64,000 nucleotides of DNA from a virus. The notes under the pieces are model-generated. The model was given only the letters and a program-made list of their open reading frames with translations, did not search any database and was not told where the DNA came from. Below, in pieces: positions 4,748 through 60,251 of the stretch. Positions within the stretch are counted from its first letter, which is position 1. Each line of letters starts with the position of its first letter. A program made the position numbers and the translations under genes. The stretch lies in IMG/VR virus record IMGVR_UViG_3300033145_001156, positions 41,623-105,622 of that record; one strand, given 5' to 3'.

Positions 4748-5364
4748 GAGAACTTCCCGTGTTAATGAATAGCTCTATGACTATAGCGACAATGGCCAGG
4801 ACGAAGACGATGACTCGCAGGCCGATGAGGCCGCAGCCTGAACATGATGCGCGATACACTCACCAGCCCCAGCGGTTGGTTTGGAGGGCGCGTAGTGGAT
4901 GGGAAGGCATCATGTGGGAGCCGTGGAAGCTAGGACATCCCCGGCCAGGATATGAGCACGTTGCCAAGCAGGGGCCATACGGAGTCCCCGGCGACTTCCT
5001 CTATGTGCGGGAGACGTGCCGGGCTGAGGAGCTTGAAAGCGGCCTCGACGGTATACGTTACTTGGCCGACAATGCCTTCATCGAAATCGAGGATAGTCTA
5101 GAAGCGGGCAAGCGCTGGAGCCAGATGTACCATTATCGAGGGGGCGAGGGGCTGACTATTCCCAGTATCCACATACCCAAGTGGGCCACACGGACGTGGC
5201 TGGTGAATACGGGCGTGGGAGTGGAGCGCGGGCCAGAGATCACGGAAGCCGATGCGAGGGCCGAGGGGTTCGAGAGCGCCGACGCGTTCATGATCTGGTG
5301 GGAGAATCAATACCCTGGAATGGACTGGCGGTTCGTGACTAGCTACGAGGTGATAGAGCGATGA
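4732..5364 (+). CDS. ASCH/PUA-like conserved phage protein
   Basis: Belongs to a widespread phage family whose members read like MRERPILFSGPMVRA...KTQTRR...PYG.PGD.LWVRETW...PSIHMPRWASR. Here I see TKTMTRR, GPYGVPGDFLYVRET and PSIHIPKWATRTWL in the same order, then an ITEADARAEG stretch and an aromatic end. The fold is thought to resemble ASCH domains, which bind modified nucleotides or RNA; the role in phages is unsettled. The start (GTG 4732) overlaps the homing endonuclease, and the N-terminus looks regenerated because an older copy of it lies at 3827. Confidence 0.7.
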   Translation: MARQIRELPVLMNSSMTIATMARTKTMTRRPMRPQPEHDARYTHQPQRLVWRARSGWEGIMWEPWKLGHPRPGYEHVAKQGPYGVPGDFLYVRETCRAEELESGLDGIRYLADNAFIEIEDSLEAGKRWSQMYHYRGGEGLTIPSIHIPKWATRTWLVNTGVGVERGPEITEADARAEGFESADAFMIWWENQYPGMDWRFVTSYEVIER

Positions 5365-9343: not shown

Positions 9344-9345
9344 GA

Positions 9346-9357
9346 CTTTGCGCAAAG
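9346..9357 (+). repeat. CTTTGCGCAAAG palindrome, exact copy 3
   Basis: Two bases after the stop at 9343; the symmetry extends to 16 bp (GACTTTGCGCAAAGTC, 9344-9359). GGGGGAG follows, but the next start I can support is 42 bp downstream. Confidence 0.9.
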
Positions 9358-9399
9358 TCTGGGGGAGCGACGGTCGGGGTTCGCAGGCATGGGTTCGAC

Positions 9400-10051: not shown

Positions 10052-10074
10052 CCTTGCAGCAAAGGGAGTGAAGC

Positions 10075-17545: not shown

Positions 17546-17574
17546 AATGGCGAGGGCTATGAGTTGGCAGAACA

Positions 17575-17586
17575 CCTTGCGCAAAG
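17575..17586 (+). repeat. Palindrome variant CCTTGCGCAAAG (one mismatch)
   Basis: Intergenic, followed by CGCAGAGGGGGAGTGACAA and GTG 17606, 19 bp downstream. Confidence 0.8.
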
Positions 17587-17605
17587 CGCAGAGGGGGAGT
17601 GACAA

Positions 17606-18165: not shown

Positions 18166-18167
18166 GA

Positions 18168-18179
18168 CTTTGCGCAAAG
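18168..18179 (+). repeat. CTTTGCGCAAAG palindrome, exact copy 4
   Basis: Intergenic; 14-bp symmetry with flanking A and T. TGAGGAGGTCTA follows, then ATG 18192, 12 bp downstream: the clearest example of palindrome, Shine-Dalgarno and start codon as one unit. Confidence 0.92.
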
Positions 18180-18191
18180 TGAGGAGGTCTA

Positions 18192-18665
18192 ATGTCTGAA
18201 TGGAACTGGAGTGATGTTCGCGAGCCGATAGAGAAGCTACTGCGGGAGAAGTATGGTGTAGGGTTGGAATCGGTCACGGTGGTGAGGACTGCCCGCTCGA
18301 ACTGGCATGCCCACGTTCCGGCAGGTCTTACGTTCGTGCCTACCCGATACCGAAACGTTGACAGGAAGGGTGTGAGGGCATGGCTGTGGCGCTTCTTCGG
18401 GAAGGTGCTTGGGAAGCCCCGCTGGGGGCAAGACAAGGTGATGCTGGAGCCCATGTGTCCTCACGAAGTGGAGGAGATCCAGTTGTCGCAATACACCGCT
18501 AAAGATCCGTGTGGTGTTGAATACAGATGGTGGATGGGATACGGCCCGGAGTCGAAGGTCCTGGCTATCGGTGATTGGGAAGGTTCGACTGGCTTTGCGC
18601 AAAGCAGGAAGGGGGAAAGAGATGCTGACGATGGAGCATCGGCCCAAGATCGAGAAGGCGTATGA
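18192..18665 (+). CDS. Hypothetical protein, 157 aa
   Basis: Unknown. The Shine-Dalgarno lies in the palindrome flank. The first about 130 residues look globular, with a basic patch (RAWLWRFFGKVLGKPRW). The last 24 residues are read across another palindrome copy (GFAQSRKGERDADDG) and look like run-on, as in the 8656 gene. Confidence 0.55.
   Translation: MSEWNWSDVREPIEKLLREKYGVGLESVTVVRTARSNWHAHVPAGLTFVPTRYRNVDRKGVRAWLWRFFGKVLGKPRWGQDKVMLEPMCPHEVEEIQLSQYTAKDPCGVEYRWWMGYGPESKVLAIGDWEGSTGFAQSRKGERDADDGASAQDREGV
18593..18604 (+). repeat. CTTTGCGCAAAG palindrome, exact copy 5
   Basis: Inside the 3' end of the preceding gene; followed by CAGGAAGGGGGAAAGAG and ATG 18622, 17 bp downstream. Confidence 0.9.
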
Positions 18666-22741: not shown

Positions 22742-25700
22742 GAAGCATTTTCTGGCAGGGAGTTCAGGAGCATCCTCTAAATTTGAGTGGAATGAAGAAT
22801 GGCGTGAAATCTCAGCCAGGCGTACTCGCACGTCTAAGACAAAACACCTTCATATCAATGGAAGTCCTACTGGGAAATATGGTTGGCATGGAACCATTGG
22901 TTCAATTCACTATCAGGACGAACAAGGCGATTGGCAAGAGATTGATGCAACGTTACGGCGCATCAATAACCCCCAGCTTGATGGCTGGCTAGTTACCCAA
23001 AACGGCTGGCACTTTGCCCTGGGTAAGCCAGGTGATAAAGACGATGATGGTTGGATAGGCTTCGGTGGTAGACAGGGGGCCAACTGGCTGAAATTCCGTT
23101 TGGATAAAGTCGGCTATCTTCATTGGCCGACTAGAGACTGGCAGGATATTGGCGGTGGTCCAACCCACGACCGTGGCAAGCTCACCCAGCATACTAATAC
23201 CATGACAATCGGGCCAGAAGGAGCCGAGTCCAGTGTCAAAACCACGGGTTATGCTGAATGGACTGACCTTTGGCAAACACCAGACAATGGCGCTATTTCA
23301 GTCAAATGGCGAGTGGACGGAGAAAAGCTCAAAGAGGCTGTTACCGTTAGCCAGACGGCAAGAGAGTGGATTACAAAAAACAGACCTCCTGACACAACCC
23401 CAAGTGAAACTTACTTCGGCTTTGTCTATGAGCTTGATGTAAGCGACATCCCTAAATGGGTTAAGGGCGGTGTTTTACAAGACATTGATGCTGACTTTGA
23501 TGACGATAATAGCACAGCCAGGGTTGAACTACGCGACGCTATGGATAGGCTATTGGCCTTTCTGCCCGTCTCCTACGCTTATAGCCAAGAAGATGAACGT
23601 GGTTACCGAGAGCGCGTTGCCTTGCGCAAGCGGTTCTGGAAAGCTCCTAATGGCAAGCACTACCTCTTGGTAGGTGCGCTCGTTCCTAACTTGGCGAATC
23701 TGCCTGCTGGCGACATCATCTTCGACCCTAGCCCCTACTCAAGTGACGACCCGACAGAGGATGGATTCATTAAATATGAAAGTGGGCCAACCTATACTAG
23801 AGATAATACAGCTGATTATCTTAGATTTGGTGGTTATGGTGAATATACCATGTTTCCAACATGGTATTTTGACTACCGTGCTTATGTTGAGTGGAATATA
23901 ACTGCTCTAGCTGGAGCTACTCTGACGACGAATCCGACATTCAAGTATCAAGGAACGTTTGATAGGACCCTTAATGAAGAGATAAACCCGATTTCAAGTC
24001 AGCCAAGTGAAGCGGAAGATGCAGACCTATACGCTGACATTGCAAGTGGTACAGCTTATGTGGACCCTTGGAACTTTGCTGTTGGCACAGGGCAAGAAGA
24101 TGATTTGGGTTCTTCGGCCAAAACAGACCTCCAAAATGCTATTGATGCTTCACAGTCATGGTTCGCAATTGGTTTACAGGACCCGGTTGCCGAGGGAACG
24201 GGCGATGATGACCTTTCGAGTCGACTTTACTCCGAGAATAAGGACCCCGCCGCCGATCCGCCGCCAACGCTGTATGTAGAGTATGAAGAAGGTTCTTCAT
24301 CATCTTCATCGAGTTCTAGCTCTAGTACCTCCTCAAGCAGCACATCATCAAGTTCTACGTCAAGCTCATCTACCAGCTCAAGCTCTACTTCGTCCTCAAG
24401 CACCAGCTCATCCTCAACTTCGAGTTCCAGCACGAGTAGTAGCATCTCATCATCATCAACGTCGAGTTCTTCTACGTCATCCAGTTCGACATCCAGCAGC
24501 TCAACTTCTTCAAGCTCAACGAGCAGCTCAAGCACGTCTTCAAGTTCAACATCATCGTCAACATCAAGTAGTTCAACTTCTAGCTCTTCGACATCAAGCT
24601 CATCTACGAGCAGCAGCTCTACATCGTCTAGCAGCACGTCCAGTTCATCCACAAGTTCAAGCACGAGTTCATCTTCAACATCCAGCAGCAGTACCTCATC
24701 TTCCAGCACGTCTAGTTCATCAACGAGCTCTTCATCAACATCATCATCAAGCATATCTAGTAGTAGCACTTCGTCAAGCTCTACATCTTCTTCTAGCACA
24801 AGTTCAAGTTCTACATCCAGTTCAAGTACCAGCTCGACGTCATCGAGCACCAGTTCTTCCTCGACGAGCAGCAGTAGTATTAGCTCAAGTAGCACGTCCA
24901 GTTCAAGTACGTCTAGCAGTTCCACGTCTTCTTCGTCAACGAGTTCCACCTCGTCAAGTTCTACTTCTTCGAGTAGCAGCACTTCTTCGTCATCGACCAG
25001 CAGCAGTTCGACATCAAGTAGTTCCACCAGCTCGTCGTCCACGTCCAGCAGCACTTCGAGTTCGTCAACCAGTTCATCCAGCACGTCCAGCTCATCTACG
25101 TCGAGTAGCTCAACGAGCACCTCAAGCAGCAGCACATCCAGCTCATCGACAAGCTCTTCGACGAGTAGCAGCTCAACCTCCTCATCGTCAACGAGTTCTA
25201 GTTCAACCTCGTCGAGTTCCACGAGTTCGTCAACATCGAGCAGCAGCACTTCCTCAAGTTCCACATCTTCTTCGTCGACTAGCTCAAGCAGCACGTCTTC
25301 GAGTTCGACTTCGTCTAGTTCCACTTCGAGCACGAGTAGCAGCTCGACATCGTCTTCGAGCACGTCAAGTTCCTCGACAAGCTCAAGCTCCACGTCTAGC
25401 AGCAGCACTTCAAGCAGTTCTACATCAAGCACGAGTTCGAGCAGCACCTCGTCATCATCGACGAGTTCATCTTCAACCAGCAGCAGCACTTCGTCAAGCT
25501 CCACGTCCAGCTCTTCAACGTCATCCTCATCGACTTCAAGTTCCAGTACTTCATCATCCTCAACGTCCTCTAGCTCTACCAGTAGTACGAGTTCAAGCAG
25601 CACGTCGTCTACTTCGAGTAGTAGCACTTCCAGTTCCAGCACAAGCTCATCTTCGACGTCTAGCAGCTCTACTTCCTCTAGTTCTACATCGAGCAGCAGT

Positions 25701-26273
25701 ACATCTAGTAGTTCCACGTCGTCATCATCTACCAGCTCGTCTACAAGTTCCAGCAGCACATCGTCTAGCAGCACGAGTTCATCTTCCACATCAAGCAGCA
25801 CATCGTCGTCCTCTACGTCATCTAGCAGCACTTCCAGTTCGTCAACGAGTAGCACATCAAGCTCAAGTACAAGCAGTAGTTCAACAAGTTCAAGCAGTAC
25901 TTCATCATCTTCAACTTCCAGCTCCAGCACAAGTTCATCCTCCACGAGTAGCAGTTCCACATCATCAAGTACTTCGTCAAGTTCGACTTCAAGCGGCACG
26001 AGTTCATCTAGCACCAGTTCGTCATCCACCAGCATAAGCAGTTCAAGCTCAAGTTCGTCGTCGTCGTCAAGCAGTTCGAGCTCCTCGTACTCGGTGCCGC
26101 CGATGGAGTGCACGGCGCTGGATGTGGTGTGCGGCGCAACGACGATAACGGCGGTTGACGGTTGCGAGGGACCGATCACGACATGCATGTGCAGCGCAAC
26201 GGCGGTTGACGGTTGTGAGGGACCGATCGTGACATGCGCGTCCGGCGAGATAGAGGTAGAAGTATACGAGTAA
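22734..26273 (+). CDS. Mucin-like virion protein with about 598-residue Ser/Thr tract
   Basis: TTG 22734 (or GTG 22680) to 26273, about 1180 residues. Residues 1-520: a globular part with RTSKTKHLHING and GSIHYQDEQGDWQEID, resembling large structural proteins of phages (RTSKT...VHYKDE..W.EID types). Then (24294-26087) an unbroken Ser/Thr tract built on TSSSS pentads with rare TSSS/TSS units and a few Ile/Gly. The C-terminal 60 residues hold two copies of TAVDGCEGPI-x-TC and are Cys-rich. I infer a stalk-like, surface-exposed virion fibre or adhesin, probably O-glycosylated. The globular part is AT-richer than flanking genes. Confidence 0.75.
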   Translation: MAKKHFLAGSSGASSKFEWNEEWREISARRTRTSKTKHLHINGSPTGKYGWHGTIGSIHYQDEQGDWQEIDATLRRINNPQLDGWLVTQNGWHFALGKPGDKDDDGWIGFGGRQGANWLKFRLDKVGYLHWPTRDWQDIGGGPTHDRGKLTQHTNTMTIGPEGAESSVKTTGYAEWTDLWQTPDNGAISVKWRVDGEKLKEAVTVSQTAREWITKNRPPDTTPSETYFGFVYELDVSDIPKWVKGGVLQDIDADFDDDNSTARVELRDAMDRLLAFLPVSYAYSQEDERGYRERVALRKRFWKAPNGKHYLLVGALVPNLANLPAGDIIFDPSPYSSDDPTEDGFIKYESGPTYTRDNTADYLRFGGYGEYTMFPTWYFDYRAYVEWNITALAGATLTTNPTFKYQGTFDRTLNEEINPISSQPSEAEDADLYADIASGTAYVDPWNFAVGTGQEDDLGSSAKTDLQNAIDASQSWFAIGLQDPVAEGTGDDDLSSRLYSENKDPAADPPPTLYVEYEEGSSSSSSSSSSSTSSSSTSSSSTSSSSTSSSSTSSSSTSSSSTSSSSTSSSISSSSTSSSSTSSSSTSSSSTSSSSTSSSSTSSSSTSSSTSSSSTSSSSTSSSSTSSSSTSSSSTSSSSTSSSTSSSSTSSSSTSSSSTSSSSTSSSSTSSSSISSSSTSSSSTSSSSTSSSSTSSSSTSSTSSSTSSSSTSSSSISSSSTSSSSTSSSSTSSSSTSSTSSSSTSSSSSTSSSSTSSSSTSSSSTSSSSTSSSTSSSSTSSSSTSSSSTSSSSTSTSSSSTSSSSTSSSTSSSSTSSSSTSSSSTSSSSTSSSTSSSSTSSSSTSSSSTSSSSTSSSSTSSSSTSSTSSSSTSSSSTSSSSTSSSSTSSSSTSSSSTSSTSSSSTSSSSTSSSSTSSSTSSSSTSSSSTSSSSTSSSSTSSSSTSSSSTSSTSSSSTSSTSSSSTSSSSTSSSSTSSSSTSSSSTSSSSTSSSSTSSSSTSSSTSSSSTSSSSTSSSSTSSSTSSSSTSSSSTSSSSTSSTSSSSTSSSSTSSSSTSSSSTSSSSTSSSSTSSSSTSSSTSSSSTSSGTSSSSTSSSSTSISSSSSSSSSSSSSSSSSYSVPPMECTALDVVCGATTITAVDGCEGPITTCMCSATAVDGCEGPIVTCASGEIEVEVYE
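24294..26087 (+). repeat. Ser/Thr low-complexity tract, protein-level repeat with scrambled codons
   Basis: 598 codons, nearly all Ser or Thr, period mostly 5 residues (15 bp). All six Ser codons and all four Thr codons are mixed almost at random, so there is no long exact DNA repeat although the protein is monotonous. Confidence 0.9.
26148..26237 (+). repeat. 39-bp direct repeat pair at the C-terminus of the Ser/Thr protein
   Basis: 26148-26186 and 26199-26237 differ at three bases only and encode TAVDGCEGPITTC and TAVDGCEGPIVTC. Recent duplication, in contrast to the codon-scrambled tract just before it. Confidence 0.8.
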
Positions 26274-28198: not shown

Positions 28199-28429
28199 AT
28201 GATCGGCTACATCCCGTGTTACGACAAGATGAGTGACGATGCGGTGGTCGAGAAATATCTCAGGGTCGATACCGACAAACTATGGGCCGGGATGACTGAT
28301 GATGAGTTCTGGGCTACGACGAGATGGGTGCTGCCAGGACTTTGCGCAAAGCGCAAGAAAAGAGATTTAGGTGGCCTTACGAGCTGCCGGAAAGGGACGG
28401 GGGATGACTTGCATCATTGGGTTGGCTGA
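28199..28429 (+). CDS. Hypothetical protein, 76 aa
   Basis: Starts directly after the portal stop. Acidic first 48 residues (DAVVEKYLRVDTDKLWAGM), then a basic stretch (LCAKRKKRDLGG) read across a palindrome copy, and finally codons overlapping the next gene. The functional part probably ends near the palindrome. Unknown. Confidence 0.45.
   Translation: MIGYIPCYDKMSDDAVVEKYLRVDTDKLWAGMTDDEFWATTRWVLPGLCAKRKKRDLGGLTSCRKGTGDDLHHWVG
28340..28351 (+). repeat. CTTTGCGCAAAG palindrome, exact copy 6
   Basis: Preceded by GGA and followed by CGCAAGAAAAG, nearly the same flanks as the 2541 copy 26 kb away. Inside the 28199 ORF; next start 52 bp downstream. Confidence 0.88.
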
Positions 28430-29984: not shown

Positions 29985-30775
29985 GCAAGATCGAGGCGTT
30001 GATCAGGCTGCTGGAGGACGTGAGGTACAGGAGCAGGTACCGCAAGTCCACCGACCGGTACAAGACCGAGCTCCAGAAGACCTACGAGGAGTGGTACAGG
30101 GGACTCGCCAAGGACCTAGAGAAGGAGGAGAGCGAGGTCAAGCGCCGCAAGCTATCTGAGGCGGCTCTGCTCGTGCTCCTGATGGATCTCAAGAAGTTGG
30201 GCAGGGAGCGGCTGGAAGAGGCATACATGCAGTCTATAGAGGCCGTCGACATAACGCCAGAGATGGTGGACGAGATGGAGTTCATCATCGCCAGCAACGA
30301 CGAGTACCTGGAAGACTCCCTGATGCCCGCCCTCAGGGAGAGGATCGAGAAGAACGTCACGTCCGAGATATGGTTCGCCGGGCTAGCCGCCATACTGGGG
30401 ACGTTCACGGGGTTCACCGCGAGGGTCGGGCTGTACGCAGGAGCGTATTGGAACGCGATATGGAAAGGGGCCGCACAGAAACATAAAGTTCAGAATCGCG
30501 AGGAATGGCAGGTGCTCTGGCTAAAAGATCCCAGGGCTCAGCATTGTAAAAGTTGTTTGGAGTTCGCTGGAGCCTATGTCCATTATGATGCGATGCTAGT
30601 AGTGACTGGCGGGGCGACACCGTCGCATTTGGTTGACTGTAATGGTAACTGCCGATGTCTGCTCCTGACACGTTCCGGCCCTGAGATGGACTGGGTCGTG
30701 ATGGGTTCCGGGGGCGTCACGGAGAGCATGAGGGAGAAGAGAGAGGAGATAACGTGGCAGAGTGGCGCAAGGTAG
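29981..30775 (+). CDS. MuF-like minor head protein
   Basis: TTG 29981 (AAGGAG upstream, ATTGA overlap). 264 residues: a long N-terminal coiled helix (1-110), a short hydrophobic stretch (WFAGLAAILGTFTGFTARVG, 131-150), then a C-terminal DPRAQHCKSCLEF (183-195) and CNGNCRC, the Cys pattern found in head-morphogenesis proteins of the Mu gpF/SPP1 gp7 type. Probably sits at the portal vertex and may be ejected. From about 30480 to 30620 codon use turns AT-rich. Confidence 0.72.
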   Translation: MSKIEALIRLLEDVRYRSRYRKSTDRYKTELQKTYEEWYRGLAKDLEKEESEVKRRKLSEAALLVLLMDLKKLGRERLEEAYMQSIEAVDITPEMVDEMEFIIASNDEYLEDSLMPALRERIEKNVTSEIWFAGLAAILGTFTGFTARVGLYAGAYWNAIWKGAAQKHKVQNREEWQVLWLKDPRAQHCKSCLEFAGAYVHYDAMLVVTGGATPSHLVDCNGNCRCLLLTRSGPEMDWVVMGSGGVTESMREKREEITWQSGAR

Positions 30776-32348: not shown

Positions 32349-32614
32349 GGGTAGTCGGGGACCTGGCAGTCGACGAGGAAGGCTACATGTACTTCAGGAT
32401 ATGCACCACGCATGGCTGGACGCCCGGGCGGAACAAGCTGTGCCGGGTGGGCGGCGGCATGGTGTTCTTCTGGGACGACTACATCGGGGTCGAGAGGGGG
32501 TTCCCCATCGGGGAGTTCGTGGAATGGCTGAGAGAGGTAGATGATGAAGTATCAGGAACCGGAGAAGCTGAGCGACAGCAAGCTGAAGGCGTACCACTGG
32601 TGGCTGCATTCTAG
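32345..32614 (+). CDS. Hypothetical protein, 89 aa
   Basis: ATGA overlap with the membrane protein. Compact beta-rich start (VDEEGYMYFRICTTHGW) and VGGGMVFFWDDYIG. The last 20 residues overlap the methyltransferase start and look like run-on. Unknown. Confidence 0.5.
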   Translation: MRVVGDLAVDEEGYMYFRICTTHGWTPGRNKLCRVGGGMVFFWDDYIGVERGFPIGEFVEWLREVDDEVSGTGEAERQQAEGVPLVAAF

Positions 32615-33617
32615 GTACAGCCGGGAGGACGTGAGTAGGAAGGAGGTCGCCAGGAGGCACACCGAGGCTGTCAGGGTGATGGAGGCCCGCGGGGTGAAGC
32701 ATCCCAGGCAGGACAAGCTGGATAGAGCGACGGTGGACGACTTTGCGCGAAGACGTGAAGGCGGGCCAGGAAAGGGTCGGAGAAGTCCTGTGAAAGATGA
32801 AGACCAGAATGAGGCCGAGCCAGGCAGGGAGACACAGGACTTTGCGCAAAGTTTGGAGGAGTCGCATAGTCGGAGCAAGTGCATGAGGTGTGACGAACCG
32901 CCGGTAGTGGATGTCCAGTGGGCCGACGGTCGTGGGAGGGCGTGGTTCTGCCTGCCGTGCTTCAGGGAATGGATCAAGGGAGAATATGAAGGAGACGACA
33001 GGGAGATAGTCAGGGCGTTCCACGTCCTCGACGGGGAGGTCCCGAAGAAGATAGGGGATGGAGAGCAGGTTAAGAAGCTAGGTGACCAATTGAAGGACAA
33101 GGAGATAGCTGAGCGCATCGAGAAGTTGACAGGGATGGAGGAGGCGCGGCGGCTGGACGACACCTACAAGCCCGAATACTTCGAGAAGTGGATGGACTGG
33201 GACAGGCACGTGCGCGCGTGGAATGCGATAAAGCCGCACCTGAGGGGGCAGTCGTTCCTGGACGTGGGCTGCGGGATGGGGTTCGCGCTGTCGCAGCTGA
33301 GGCAGGCGGGCTACAGGGTGAGGGGAACGGAAGTGAGTCCGTGGGCCATAGGGTTCTGCGCCGCGCTGGGGATCAGGGTGGACAGGGCCAGCGCTACCAA
33401 GCTGCCCTACGAGGACGGATCGTTCGACACCGTGTTCTCGATGTTCCTGCTGGACGACGTCCCCGGGAAGGCCGTCGAGGAGTCAATCAGGGTCGCGAGG
33501 ATGAGGGCGGTGCACCTGGTCCCCGACGTGGAGAAGTGGGCGGGGGGGGAGCTGGCGGACGGGTTCCGGGTGCTGGTACACGACAAGTCGGCGGCGAAGT
33601 CCGGGCAGGAAGCGTGA
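32541..33617 (+). CDS. Composite protein: N-terminal module, zinc knuckle, class I SAM methyltransferase
   Basis: 358 residues in three parts. Residues 1-68: LSDSKLKAYHWWLHSRYSREDV, a small helical module. Residues 113-150: CMRCDEPPVV...FCLPCFREW, a zinc knuckle. Residues 205-358: a class I methyltransferase with FLDVGCGMGFAL (motif I), GTEVSPWAIGF (motif II), LPYEDGSFDTVFSM (motif IV) for an unknown small-molecule or sugar substrate. Palindrome copies lie exactly between parts 1 and 2 (32741 and 32840), translated as DFARR and DFAQS, so I infer gene fusion at these seams. Confidence 0.75.
   Translation: MMKYQEPEKLSDSKLKAYHWWLHSRYSREDVSRKEVARRHTEAVRVMEARGVKHPRQDKLDRATVDDFARRREGGPGKGRRSPVKDEDQNEAEPGRETQDFAQSLEESHSRSKCMRCDEPPVVDVQWADGRGRAWFCLPCFREWIKGEYEGDDREIVRAFHVLDGEVPKKIGDGEQVKKLGDQLKDKEIAERIEKLTGMEEARRLDDTYKPEYFEKWMDWDRHVRAWNAIKPHLRGQSFLDVGCGMGFALSQLRQAGYRVRGTEVSPWAIGFCAALGIRVDRASATKLPYEDGSFDTVFSMFLLDDVPGKAVEESIRVARMRAVHLVPDVEKWAGGELADGFRVLVHDKSAAKSGQEA
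32741..32752 (+). repeat. Palindrome variant CTTTGCGCGAAG (one mismatch), intragenic seam
   Basis: Translated as DFARR between the first module of the composite methyltransferase and a linker; ACGTGAAGGCGGG follows. Confidence 0.8.
32840..32851 (+). repeat. CTTTGCGCAAAG palindrome, exact copy 7, intragenic seam
   Basis: Translated as DFAQS immediately before the zinc-knuckle module; GGA precedes and TTTGGAGGAG follows, i.e. a relic Shine-Dalgarno now read through. Confidence 0.88.
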
Positions 33618-33618
33618 T

Positions 33619-33646
33619 TTGACACAAGCCGTGGATTCACTATAAT
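33619..33646 (+). promoter_or_regulatory. Sigma-70 promoter, TTGACA-16-TATAAT
   Basis: Perfect consensus hexamers (33619-33624 and 33641-33646), 16-bp spacer, in the 135-bp gap before the capsid operon. Start expected near 33653, giving a leader of about 100 nt with two hairpins before ATG 33753. Confidence 0.88.
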
Positions 33647-33652
33647 ATGATT

Positions 33653-33742
33653 AGCAAGCGGATAATGCGGGGATGACCCGCTACAACTGAATAGATACTA
33701 TCGCGAGGCCGGAGAGCCCTTTTCTCCGGCCTTTTGCGTTTT
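33653..33742 (+). ncRNA. Attenuator-like leader or small phage RNA
   Basis: Predicted transcript from the promoter at 33619. It contains GCGGG-GATGA-CCCGC (33667-33681) and then the terminator-like hairpin at 33707-33731. No ORF with a ribosome site is contained. It could be a short stable RNA or a leader read through only with antitermination. Confidence 0.5.
33707..33742 (+). terminator. Intrinsic terminator hairpin in the capsid-operon leader
   Basis: 9-bp perfect stem GGCCGGAGA / TCTCCGGCC (33707-33715 with 33723-33731), 7-nt loop, followed by TTTTGCGTTTT. It lies about 55-80 nt downstream of a consensus promoter and 10 bp before the Shine-Dalgarno of 33753. Confidence 0.8.
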
Positions 33743-46937: not shown

Positions 46938-47774
46938 ATGATGAGGATTGGGTGGATTTTTGATCAGGCGCTATCGCTCCACACGGGCGGGCAGATGCTT
47001 TCCAGCAGGCTGCTGCTGAGGAGGTCACCAGGCTGGGCCGACGTGAAGGTCATATCGCCGTACCACGACAGTTGGCTGGGCGAGTGCGACGCATACATCG
47101 TGAACCAGTGCCGGTACTTCAGGCCCGACCAGTTGGCGAGGATCATGGAGAAGCCGTACATCTGGCTGTTCCACGACGCGCTGCACAACTGTATGCACCA
47201 GGGGTTCATCCTGAAGGCGCTGCTGAGGAAGGCGACGGGCTGCATGTTCAAGTCGCCTTCCCACCAGGAGAACGTGTGCGGCAAGTGGCCGGAAGCGAAG
47301 GAAGTCCCCGGGAAAGCGGTCTACGCGACGCCGATAGACCTGGACATGTTCTACCCGGGGGAGAAGACGAGAGGCACGATCTGGCTGGGGAACTACGTGC
47401 CGGAGAAAGGCGTGAGAGAGGCCGTCGCGTGGGCCGAGGAGAACGAGGAGGTCGTGGACTTCTTCGGGTTCGGGGACGCGTTCATGTTCAGGATAGCCAG
47501 CCCCTGGGCCAGGTTCTATCCGGTGCTGCCCTACAGGGAGGTGCCGCAGATCCTCAGGCGGTACGAGAGGCTGGTGTTCCTGCCCAAGTGCCCAGAGGCC
47601 GCCGGTCGGGTGGTGGTGGAGGCGCTGCTGTCGGGCTGCGAGGTGGTCACCAACGACATGATCGGGTTCAAGTCGTTCGACTGGTGGTCGGACGAGCCAG
47701 GGACTTTGCGCAAAGCGCTGAGGGAGCGAGAGGGGGAATTCTGGGAGACGGTCAAGGAGATGTTAGATGGATAA
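46938..47774 (+). CDS. GT4-like glycosyltransferase (GT-B fold)
   Basis: ATG 46938. IGWIFDQALSLHTGGQMLSSRLLL, YIVNQCRYFRPDQLARIME and a C-terminal half with TIWLGNYVPEKGVREAVAWAEE, FLPKCPEAAGRVVVEALLSGC-E-V-V (E-x7-E-like donor site). 278 residues, short for GT4. A palindrome copy is translated near the end (TLRKA, third reading frame). Overlaps the next gene by 8 bp. Confidence 0.76.
   Translation: MMRIGWIFDQALSLHTGGQMLSSRLLLRRSPGWADVKVISPYHDSWLGECDAYIVNQCRYFRPDQLARIMEKPYIWLFHDALHNCMHQGFILKALLRKATGCMFKSPSHQENVCGKWPEAKEVPGKAVYATPIDLDMFYPGEKTRGTIWLGNYVPEKGVREAVAWAEENEEVVDFFGFGDAFMFRIASPWARFYPVLPYREVPQILRRYERLVFLPKCPEAAGRVVVEALLSGCEVVTNDMIGFKSFDWWSDEPGTLRKALREREGEFWETVKEMLDG
47704..47715 (+). 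repeat. CTTTGCGCAAAG palindrome, exact copy 8 (intragenic, 3' end)
   Basis: Preceded by GGA, followed by CGCTGAGGGAG. Lies 51 bp before ATG 47767, read in frame by the GT4 gene as TLRKA. Confidence 0.85.
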
Positions 47775-57542: not shown

Positions 57543-60251
57543 ATGTCAAATCCTATGATTCGCGTGAGACTCATAGCGGGCGACGACGAACTGGACATCC
57601 ACGACTGGAAAGACTACGTCCTGATGGGCAACGGTCTGACAGATTCGGGGTCATCCGTCGAGCTCAGATGGCAGGTCCCCCTCGAACCCTGCAAGGGCGG
57701 CACGGGCAACCTCCAGCGGCTCGTGGGGGAGCTCCGCAAGTACATCCAGCGCGCGAAACTCTACGAACAGGAGAACATCGGAGATCCGGTCTACCTGGCG
57801 GTCTACTGGCCCGAGTGCGAGGACATCCCCGTCCCTTCCTTCGGCAGAGGATGGCGCTACAAGAGGATTGTCGACGGAGCGCTCGCAGAGGCCACCCCGG
57901 GGATGGGGCAGGGGCAGCCCGACTTCCGGTTCGGCTCCGACGCGATCCCCGTCCTGGCTGCGATGTTCGCGGTGAAGCAGGACCCGGACGGGGAGTACGC
58001 CTGGAGGTCGGAGTTCAGGTGGGTCGCCCAGGCGACGGGGCACCTTGAACCCGTGGCCGAGAACGGCATCAAGCTATGGGAAGAATCGCAGAACATCATC
58101 ACGAACGGCGACTTCGAGCTGGGCAAGGCGGGCTGGACCGACACGGGGCTCACGTCGACCGTCAGCGCGGAGAGGGCGAAGTTCGGCGTCCGCTCCCTGC
58201 TGATAACCCCGGCAGTCGGCACTTGTCGAACTCCTTTCACGGACCCCGCGCCCCCGTCCCACTTCATAGCCACGGCGTGGTTCTATCTCCCTTGCGGAGT
58301 AGATCATACACAAATAGGACTGACATTGGACGATGACGTTAACCCATTGGTGACCCAGTTATGCGCGGACGTTCATGACGAGTGGCAAAGGGTTCAAGTC
58401 GATTATGACACCAATGCAGGTTCAGCTGCATGGTTCGTGTATATCGCTTGTAATGAAGTAAATGCGAGCCGGTACTTCTGGGTGGACGGGGTGCAGGTCG
58501 AGATGCGCCTGGAGGTCGATGGGCCGACGCCCTTCATAGAACCAGACAGGCATCTAGGCGAAGTTTGGGACACATGCTATTCCCCACATACTAGCATGTC
58601 CACGCGAAATGAAGGAGAATGTCGAGTGGTTCGCCCTATTGAGCGCAATTATGCTACTCCCTGCTGCGGCTCGTTCCATTGCTGGTACAGGCCGGGGTAC
58701 GACAACGCCCTCGTGTCCGGCGTAGGGCAGGCCACGATATTCGACTGGCTGAAAGACAGCAACAACTTCATCTGGGTCTACTTCGACTACAGCACCAACA
58801 CGTTTGAGCTGAAGGTGAACAACTTCGTCCAGGTGACGACCGTCGACGCCTTCATGGAGGGCGACTATATTGGAGTAGGCGCGACATGGGACTTCATAAA
58901 CGACGAGTACAAGCTGTACCTCAGGGGCGTTCCAGGCGTTATGGGGACGACCGTCAAGATATGCCCGGACTTGAGGGGTGAGGACATCTTCTGGGGTTCC
59001 GAGTTCGACCACGACAACCAGGCGAACGGCGACCTGTACGACTGCCGGATGTGGACGGAGATACTCACGGATGTCCAGATGAAGGCGGTGCATGAAGAAG
59101 GAAGGGGTAATGGTGAGTTACCCTATGTCTGGGGAGAAAAAGGGTCTGCCGATCATCCAACTTTCGCCACACCTATGGGTGTCGAACTTGAAAACCATGA
59201 TGATTGTACTGATGGAGATACCAATTGGGTTGAGTTTGGCAATATCGCGGGAGACATCAGCGCAGTTTCTTGGGTCATGGTCAAGGCAGAGTCCTCAATA
59301 GATGGAATTGATCCTACCGAAATGCAATTATGGTATGGATTGAGAAGGCATGCCGCCTCGATACAAAGAATATACAATCGCGGCCAATTCGTTTGGGAAG
59401 GGGAAGACTATCATACCACTATCAACTGGATTACAACTTTAGCTACCGACGCTGCCAATACCAGTAATGGGGAGCACCAGCAAACCTCCACGATGGGTAC
59501 AAGCTGGGCTGCCGCAAGCAGCTTGGCTTGGCATTTAGCTAAATATAACTATGATATTACGTGGCTTCGTGGGCAATGGCGGGTCTGTGCTAGAATTCGC
59601 ACGGACCATAGTGCCGATGTTTACTTCAGAATGTATACGACGGGGGAATGGAATCATTTCCAAACTCCTTACATACCTAGTGCGGGTGGATTACAATGTC
59701 AACAAAATTCAGCCCTTGGATCTGGCGCGCTCTGGGAGTGGCATGACTTCGGCGTTATTGATATACCAGTCACGTATATGGCCGAAAGACAGGCCAATGG
59801 GCGCTCAATGGCACCACTCAACTTTGAGATGGAACAGGTAGAGCTTATCCTGGAAGTCATGGGGGCCAGCGCTTCCGATAAAGCAGAGTGCGATTACATA
59901 ATGTTGATCCCAGAATCTATGGGCGGCATTTGGGGAGATATAAGTAATAGGTATACAACTTGGCCCGGCTACCACGTATCCGATACCGAATCGCAGGCCG
60001 CGACATGCAACGTTCAAATGGAAGATGTTCTTAGCGCCATAATCCCACCATTTGGCGTAGAAATGTCCCCTGCCGAGCCTTATCCTCACAGGGGTGATCC
60101 GTTATGGATACCTCCAAACATCCCAAGCCGTTGCGTGTTCGCTTTCACGGAATATAGCGATGGAGGATTTCAATGCCTATATGAACACGTCATTAACCGG
60201 GCGCTTTACGTCAAAACTATGATGGGCCATCGATACCGAACATCCCGATGA
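57543..60251 (+). CDS. Distal tail protein with carbohydrate-binding and LamG modules
   Basis: 902 residues directly after the tape measure. Residues 1-180: G-skewed backbone typical of a distal-tail/baseplate component. About 185-330: NIITNGDFELGKAGWTDTG...HFIATAWFYLP, a CBM4/9-like module. About 375-530: LamG-like (HCWYRPGYDNAL, WVYFDYSTNTFELKVN, DLYDCRMWTEILTDVQ). The remaining 370 residues, from about 59090 on, form an AT-rich beta-rich module of unknown type. Composition flips at module borders, indicating cassette exchange. Probably host-surface glycan binding. Confidence 0.72.
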   Translation: MSNPMIRVRLIAGDDELDIHDWKDYVLMGNGLTDSGSSVELRWQVPLEPCKGGTGNLQRLVGELRKYIQRAKLYEQENIGDPVYLAVYWPECEDIPVPSFGRGWRYKRIVDGALAEATPGMGQGQPDFRFGSDAIPVLAAMFAVKQDPDGEYAWRSEFRWVAQATGHLEPVAENGIKLWEESQNIITNGDFELGKAGWTDTGLTSTVSAERAKFGVRSLLITPAVGTCRTPFTDPAPPSHFIATAWFYLPCGVDHTQIGLTLDDDVNPLVTQLCADVHDEWQRVQVDYDTNAGSAAWFVYIACNEVNASRYFWVDGVQVEMRLEVDGPTPFIEPDRHLGEVWDTCYSPHTSMSTRNEGECRVVRPIERNYATPCCGSFHCWYRPGYDNALVSGVGQATIFDWLKDSNNFIWVYFDYSTNTFELKVNNFVQVTTVDAFMEGDYIGVGATWDFINDEYKLYLRGVPGVMGTTVKICPDLRGEDIFWGSEFDHDNQANGDLYDCRMWTEILTDVQMKAVHEEGRGNGELPYVWGEKGSADHPTFATPMGVELENHDDCTDGDTNWVEFGNIAGDISAVSWVMVKAESSIDGIDPTEMQLWYGLRRHAASIQRIYNRGQFVWEGEDYHTTINWITTLATDAANTSNGEHQQTSTMGTSWAAASSLAWHLAKYNYDITWLRGQWRVCARIRTDHSADVYFRMYTTGEWNHFQTPYIPSAGGLQCQQNSALGSGALWEWHDFGVIDIPVTYMAERQANGRSMAPLNFEMEQVELILEVMGASASDKAECDYIMLIPESMGGIWGDISNRYTTWPGYHVSDTESQAATCNVQMEDVLSAIIPPFGVEMSPAEPYPHRGDPLWIPPNIPSRCVFAFTEYSDGGFQCLYEHVINRALYVKTMMGHRYRTSR

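Follow-up and report, generated by a model that had tools for sequence, protein, structure and literature searches.

A palindrome repeated between viral genes lies at gene-order breaks and bounds the linker between two modules of a methyltransferase ORF

Two copies of a 14-bp palindrome, ACTTTGCGCAAAGT, bound the linker between the first two modules of a 358-codon methyltransferase ORF, and the same palindrome is repeated at gene junctions throughout the surrounding viral genome. On balance, we favor the explanation that this linker is a former intercistronic junction, or two such junctions in series, that is now read through, and that the palindrome belongs with the start-associated or boundary repeats. 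The location of the junction, the rearrangement of a sister phage at palindromes, and the open frame through the linker were observed directly. The DNA analyzed is a stretch of 64,000 nucleotides (the window) from a 105,622-base IMG/VR virus contig, designated G000, on which nearly all genes lie on the + strand. Window coordinates are used throughout unless marked as contig coordinates (contig = window + 41622). The features of the methyltransferase locus are as follows.

32541..33617, + strand: 358-codon ORF (358 aa) with modules A, B and C
32553..32723, + strand: module A, helical, residues 5-61, homologous to a module of phage polyproteins
32724..32861, + strand: A-B linker, the stretch of the ORF with the lowest GC3, bounded by both palindromes
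32740..32753, + strand: palindrome copy 1, ACTTTGCGCGAAGA, with 2 mismatches, read as DFARR (residues 67-71)
32835..32837, + strand: CAG codon (Gln99), at the place of an in-phase TAG in five other copies (TAG GAC TTT GCG CAA AGT)
32839..32852, + strand: palindrome copy 2, an exact match, read as DFAQS (residues 100-104)
32855..32861, + strand: relic Shine-Dalgarno GGAGGAG, 3′ of copy 2
32862..33155, + strand: module B, zinc module (CMRC..WADGRGRAWFC), residues 108-205
33258..33500, + strand: module C, class I SAM methyltransferase (Methyltransf_11, E=1.3e-12)
33619..33646, + strand: consensus sigma-70 promoter TTGACA-16-TATAAT, 3′ of the ORF, for the next genes
33705..33733, + strand: terminator-like hairpin 3′ of the promoter; weak (1 found vs 1.4 expected)

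The codon-usage score of 32541-33617 was positive nearly throughout in the frame of the ORF and, in both alternative frames, negative for the most part; three parts were distinguished within it: the helical module A, the zinc module B, and the methyltransferase C. Module A was matched at E=1e-9 (HMM built without the 358-codon ORF; 5183 ORFs), with an alignment that covers residues 5-71. The WADGRGRAWFC zinc module was found in 22 stretches of IMG/VR, mostly within long multi-domain ORFs, and had no match in GTDB genomes. Module C scored 48.6 bits against a Methyltransf_11 cut-off of 21.2, and the glycine-rich SAM motif LDVGCGMGF is present. There were no full-length relatives of the ORF in the phages collection, and its matches on viral contigs were partial and confined to the methyltransferase. 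The AlphaFold single-sequence model was too poor overall (pLDDT 42.5), with values below 50 for linker residues 73-110.

The layout of the linker resembles that of an intercistronic junction: module A, a palindrome, 28 codons, CAG, a second palindrome, a relic ribosome site, and module B. The LD end of module A is located about 16 nt 5′ of copy 1, and the conserved start of module B (HSRSKCM) about 10 nt 3′ of copy 2; a predicted peptide across the linker is ...ETQDFAQSLEESHSR. An earlier note on this DNA, made from the sequence alone, had read the two palindromes in the A-B seam as DFARR and DFAQS, which was confirmed. It had also placed a Shine-Dalgarno sequence after each copy; this is true of copy 2 (GGAGGAG), but copy 1 is followed only by a weak purine stretch, GAAGGCGG, without a good ribosome site. 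No start codon in the frame of module B was found at normal spacing 3′ of GGAGGAG, and use of the ATG at 32883 would remove the first zinc cysteine, C114, which is invariant. At copy 2, a single T/C difference separates a stop (TAG, as in five other copies) from read-through (CAG, as here).

The codon composition sets the linker apart as well. GC3 was 0.54 for the linker (codons 62-107), compared with 0.87 for A, 0.74 for B and 0.92 for C, and with 0.86 over all remaining codons of the ORF (p=4e-6 by Fisher test, for a segment set by the module limits and uncorrected for the choice of segment). The 46-codon window with the lowest GC3 in the whole ORF begins at codon 59. The possibility that DFARR and DFAQS are ordinary codons that match the palindrome by chance was considered, and a few chance copies may exist: those at 47703 and 61081 are located inside genes, are read as ordinary-looking TLRK/ALRK codons, and may be there by chance. 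For the two linker copies, coincidence is very improbable, given that both occur within 113 bp, at the two ends of a low-GC3 linker, with a ribosome site after the second. In a sister contig, L040, the ORF at 4757-5275 also contains two palindromes (4761 and 4860) exactly 99 bp apart, the spacing found in the 358-codon ORF; the intervening DNA is unrelated, and the shared spacing was set aside as a coincidence.

The palindrome is a genome-wide element. In the window, ACTTTGCGCAAAGT had 17 matches within 3 mismatches where 1.8 were expected, and none of 100 shuffles reached 17; on the whole contig (105.6 kb), there were 24 matches at ≤1 mismatch and none for the reversed control. The consensus over 31 copies from G000 and its sister contigs is (TAG)GACTTTGCGCAAAGY, written out as (TAG)GA-CTTTG(C/T)GCAAAG-Y, with a purine-rich ribosome site after it. 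A stretch resembling such a site stands 3′ of 22 of the 31 copies, compared with 15% of random sites, and many copies occupy precisely the gap that separates one gene's stop from the start of its downstream neighbor. TAG immediately precedes 9 of the 24 contig copies, and in 5 of these it shares the phase of DFAQS. As the earlier note had stated, all forward frames of the palindrome are free of stop codons. Six bacterial genomes with related capsid genes lacked the palindrome 12-mer and thus gave no link to a host, and our literature search found no paper in which this palindrome is named a phage or regulatory motif.

A second virus, G008 (L021; 63.6 kb, coding on the other strand), carries five exact copies of the palindrome 12-mer and no copies of the controls. 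At least three of these immediately precede a start that has a ribosome site, and two of them directly follow a stop codon. The G008 palindromes are also surrounded by extended A/T-rich symmetry. The two viruses have little protein in common (module B, a portion of a tape-measure-sized protein, and some small stretches), and there was no obvious candidate for a common regulator. The other records that carry module B had no palindrome 12-mers.

Gene order was compared with that of a sister phage represented by the contigs L016 and L040, which belong together because they overlap by 114 identical bases; the portal DNA of L016 is 89% identical to that of G000. The order of the genes is P-Q-R in G000 and Q-P-S-R in L016. 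The genes and palindromes concerned are as follows.

contig 59199-59801: gene P
contig 59855-60238: gene Q
17574..17587 (contig 59196), + strand: palindrome 5′ of gene P; in L016 the left neighbor differs and the gene to the right is the same
18167..18180 (contig 59789), + strand: palindrome between P and Q; in L016 another gene follows P
18592..18605 (contig 60214), + strand: palindrome between Q and R; in L016 P comes after Q
9345..9358 (contig 50967), + strand: palindrome with its right-hand gene common to L040 and different DNA on the left
28339..28352 (contig 69961), + strand: palindrome with, some 30 bp farther on, a 1-kb insertion in L016 or deletion in G000

Homology between the relatives starts or stops at the palindromes at 9345, 17574, 18167 and 18592. 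Gene Q of L016 retains the palindrome at its end and is then followed by P. The palindrome stays with the same downstream gene in the sister for P, for R (in degenerate form), and for the gene after 9345, but not for Q. Near 10052 (contig 51674), a palindrome that is degenerate in G000 is the site at which L040 carries an additional, inserted gene. The earlier note had treated the palindromes as gene-junction elements, and this part of its reading is borne out both by the module limits, which lie within about 10-16 nt of a palindrome, and by the altered gene order of the sister. In terms of frequency, breaks were found at 4 of 5 palindromes (5 of 5 when counting also the break 30 bp past 28339) versus 13 of 27 other gene junctions, a difference that is not significant (Fisher p=0.34); the value for random positions was 29%. 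In these alignments, the palindromes do serve as break points, with no demonstrated preference for them over other gene junctions. Palindrome-free breaks were also found, among them a deletion (contig 55447/57120) at a short match of GAGGGCG, the replacement of a gene at contig 70559-70948, and the insertion, in frame, of a domain near the end of a MuF-like protein (L016 8105-8412, opposite window position 30736), the inserted domain beginning with GGPGSGHRGHVGRPG. A protease-based search found no sister contigs across the methyltransferase locus, and an unfused ancestor was not seen.

Two further insertions were observed in relatives. The sister's copy of gene X contains an inserted HNH-like ORF (L016 600-1150) that adjoins a palindrome region. 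In a close relative (83% identical), the capsid gene is interrupted by about 980 bp (L012 828-1804); this insert carries, on the opposite strand, the gene of an HNH endonuclease (E=6e-10) and had no Rfam intron match.

The earlier note had proposed the palindrome as a plausible device of the phage for creating fusion genes; such a device could act, for instance, by site-specific recombination. The breaks of the sister phage at palindromes and the absence of stops in every frame are consistent with such a device, and the breaks nevertheless show no significant excess at palindromes. Moreover, the 358-codon ORF is the only case among 24 copies in which a read-through palindrome joins domains, the other read-through copies giving only C-terminal tails; the domain insertion in the MuF-like gene of the sister took place without a palindrome; and the same domain combinations exist elsewhere without one. 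An active fusion device is thus improbable, and this claim of the earlier note was not upheld.

The combinations without a palindrome come from other viruses. Module A precedes module B within one ORF in eight other viral ORFs (L019, L023, L026, L032, L033, L036, L037 and L038, with L032 and L037 being near-copies), at a distance of roughly 250-1000 residues, and no palindromes were found at the loci examined. In L031, a related, C-like methyltransferase (E=1e-14) and module B share one ORF without a palindrome, and in G008 an A-ORF and a B-ORF abut by an ATGA overlap, again at a palindrome-free junction. Since A/B and C/B are joined elsewhere without it, the palindrome is unnecessary for joining these domains. 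These associations place modules A, B and C in one pool of phage polyprotein modules. The earlier description of the ORF as three unrelated parts therefore stands as to the three parts and fails as to their being unrelated, because A and B recur together. As to whether module ends fall at palindromes, the end of A and the start of B lie next to them, and the B-C seam has no palindrome. A complete A-B-C homologue, with or without a palindrome, was not found; only the two-part combinations were, so the refuting case named in the earlier note, homologs with all three parts but no palindrome, could be checked in part.

These same observations are what would be expected if the ORF were a shrunken phage polyprotein, in which A and B were always in one frame, 350-1000 residues were lost between them, and no separate genes were ever joined; the palindromes would then have arrived later or been left at the deletion scar. 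The constant order of A and B, the methyltransferase joined to B in L031, and the palindrome-free junction in G008 all point in this direction. Our ORF resembles the A/B polyproteins of IMG/VR phages (L019, L026, L033, L038 and others) in that A precedes B within a single ORF, and it differs from them in that it is only 358 aa long, separates A from B by about 45 residues, and contains two palindromes in this linker. Two intergenic-type palindromes together with a relic ribosome site would not remain after a plain in-frame deletion, and we regard shrinkage as a possible but rather unlikely explanation. A and B may have originated either as separate genes or in the A...B polyprotein seen in other viruses.

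According to the favored explanation, that of a junction now read through, ACTTTGCGCAAAGT would be a repeated intercistronic element that usually stands after one stop codon and before the next ribosome-binding site and start. Its primary role is likely to be regulatory, as a dyad site for a putative binding protein, by comparison with the start-associated repeats of cluster K mycobacteriophages. Because the element is repeated, genes have become cut and joined at its copies, as the gene-order differences show, presumably by homologous recombination between them; and since every frame of the element is open, read-through is possible at a junction without the TAG. We infer that loss of the stop (TAG versus CAG) was the last step of the fusion, and likewise which of the two states came first. 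The element is real and unusual, and the fusion would plausibly be a by-product of it and not its purpose.

The cluster K repeats are the 13-bp asymmetric SAS, GGGATAGGAGCCC, and the ESAS, a 17-bp inverted repeat with a spacer; their authors favor a DNA-binding site and mention the repeats as possible targets for homologous recombination (PMC3203893). Like SAS/ESAS, the palindrome is a short repeat of many copies that lies within a few nucleotides of translation starts for a subset of genes. Unlike them, it is a single contiguous 14-bp sequence after a stop codon, its consensus is (TAG)GACTTTGCGCAAAGY and not GGGATAGGAGCCC, and its copies are located at observed gene-order breaks. Boundary sequences have often been invoked for phage mosaicism, yet they cannot be found at most mosaic boundaries (PMC3029335). 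The palindrome is similar to such sequences in being a short shared sequence at gene boundaries where the gene content of relatives changes, and different in that a single genome reuses it at about two dozen junctions and a second, barely related virus also contains it. What is presented here is thus a boundary sequence that is reused genome-wide, seen at the gene-order break points of a sister, present in a second virus, and traced inside a protein; more sister genomes would make the role of boundary sequences in phage mosaicism testable. A bolder and doubtful extension is that the palindrome is a portable cistron linker, a protein-recognized element of barely related viruses that both controls the next gene and serves as a cut-and-join point for cassettes, with an occasional in-frame fusion. 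If this were true, gene order would be reshuffled cassette by cassette, with two cassettes sometimes fusing in frame.

The palindrome was also examined as a potential RNA hairpin. The two copies in the 358-codon ORF and one TTTAGGAGG-type copy folded no better than shuffles, and one GCGC-type copy folded better (z -3.5); a general RNA structure is not claimed. In a subtype with GCGCARRRRGG 3′ of the palindrome (e.g. contig 30345), CUUUGCGC can pair with GCGC to form a hairpin beside the ribosome site, which could act on translation. The sole gene called on the - strand, at 24227-26188, encodes 653 aa without a Pfam or PHROGs match. The central CpG of the palindrome is changed to TpG or CpA in several copies (e.g. 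contig 14315 and 27767; L016 2430 and 5260; L040 3888), the pattern expected from deamination of methylated cytosine, and a gene for a C5 cytosine methylase (E=3e-57) is present in the sister L040, within a block whose DNA is similar to that of G000.
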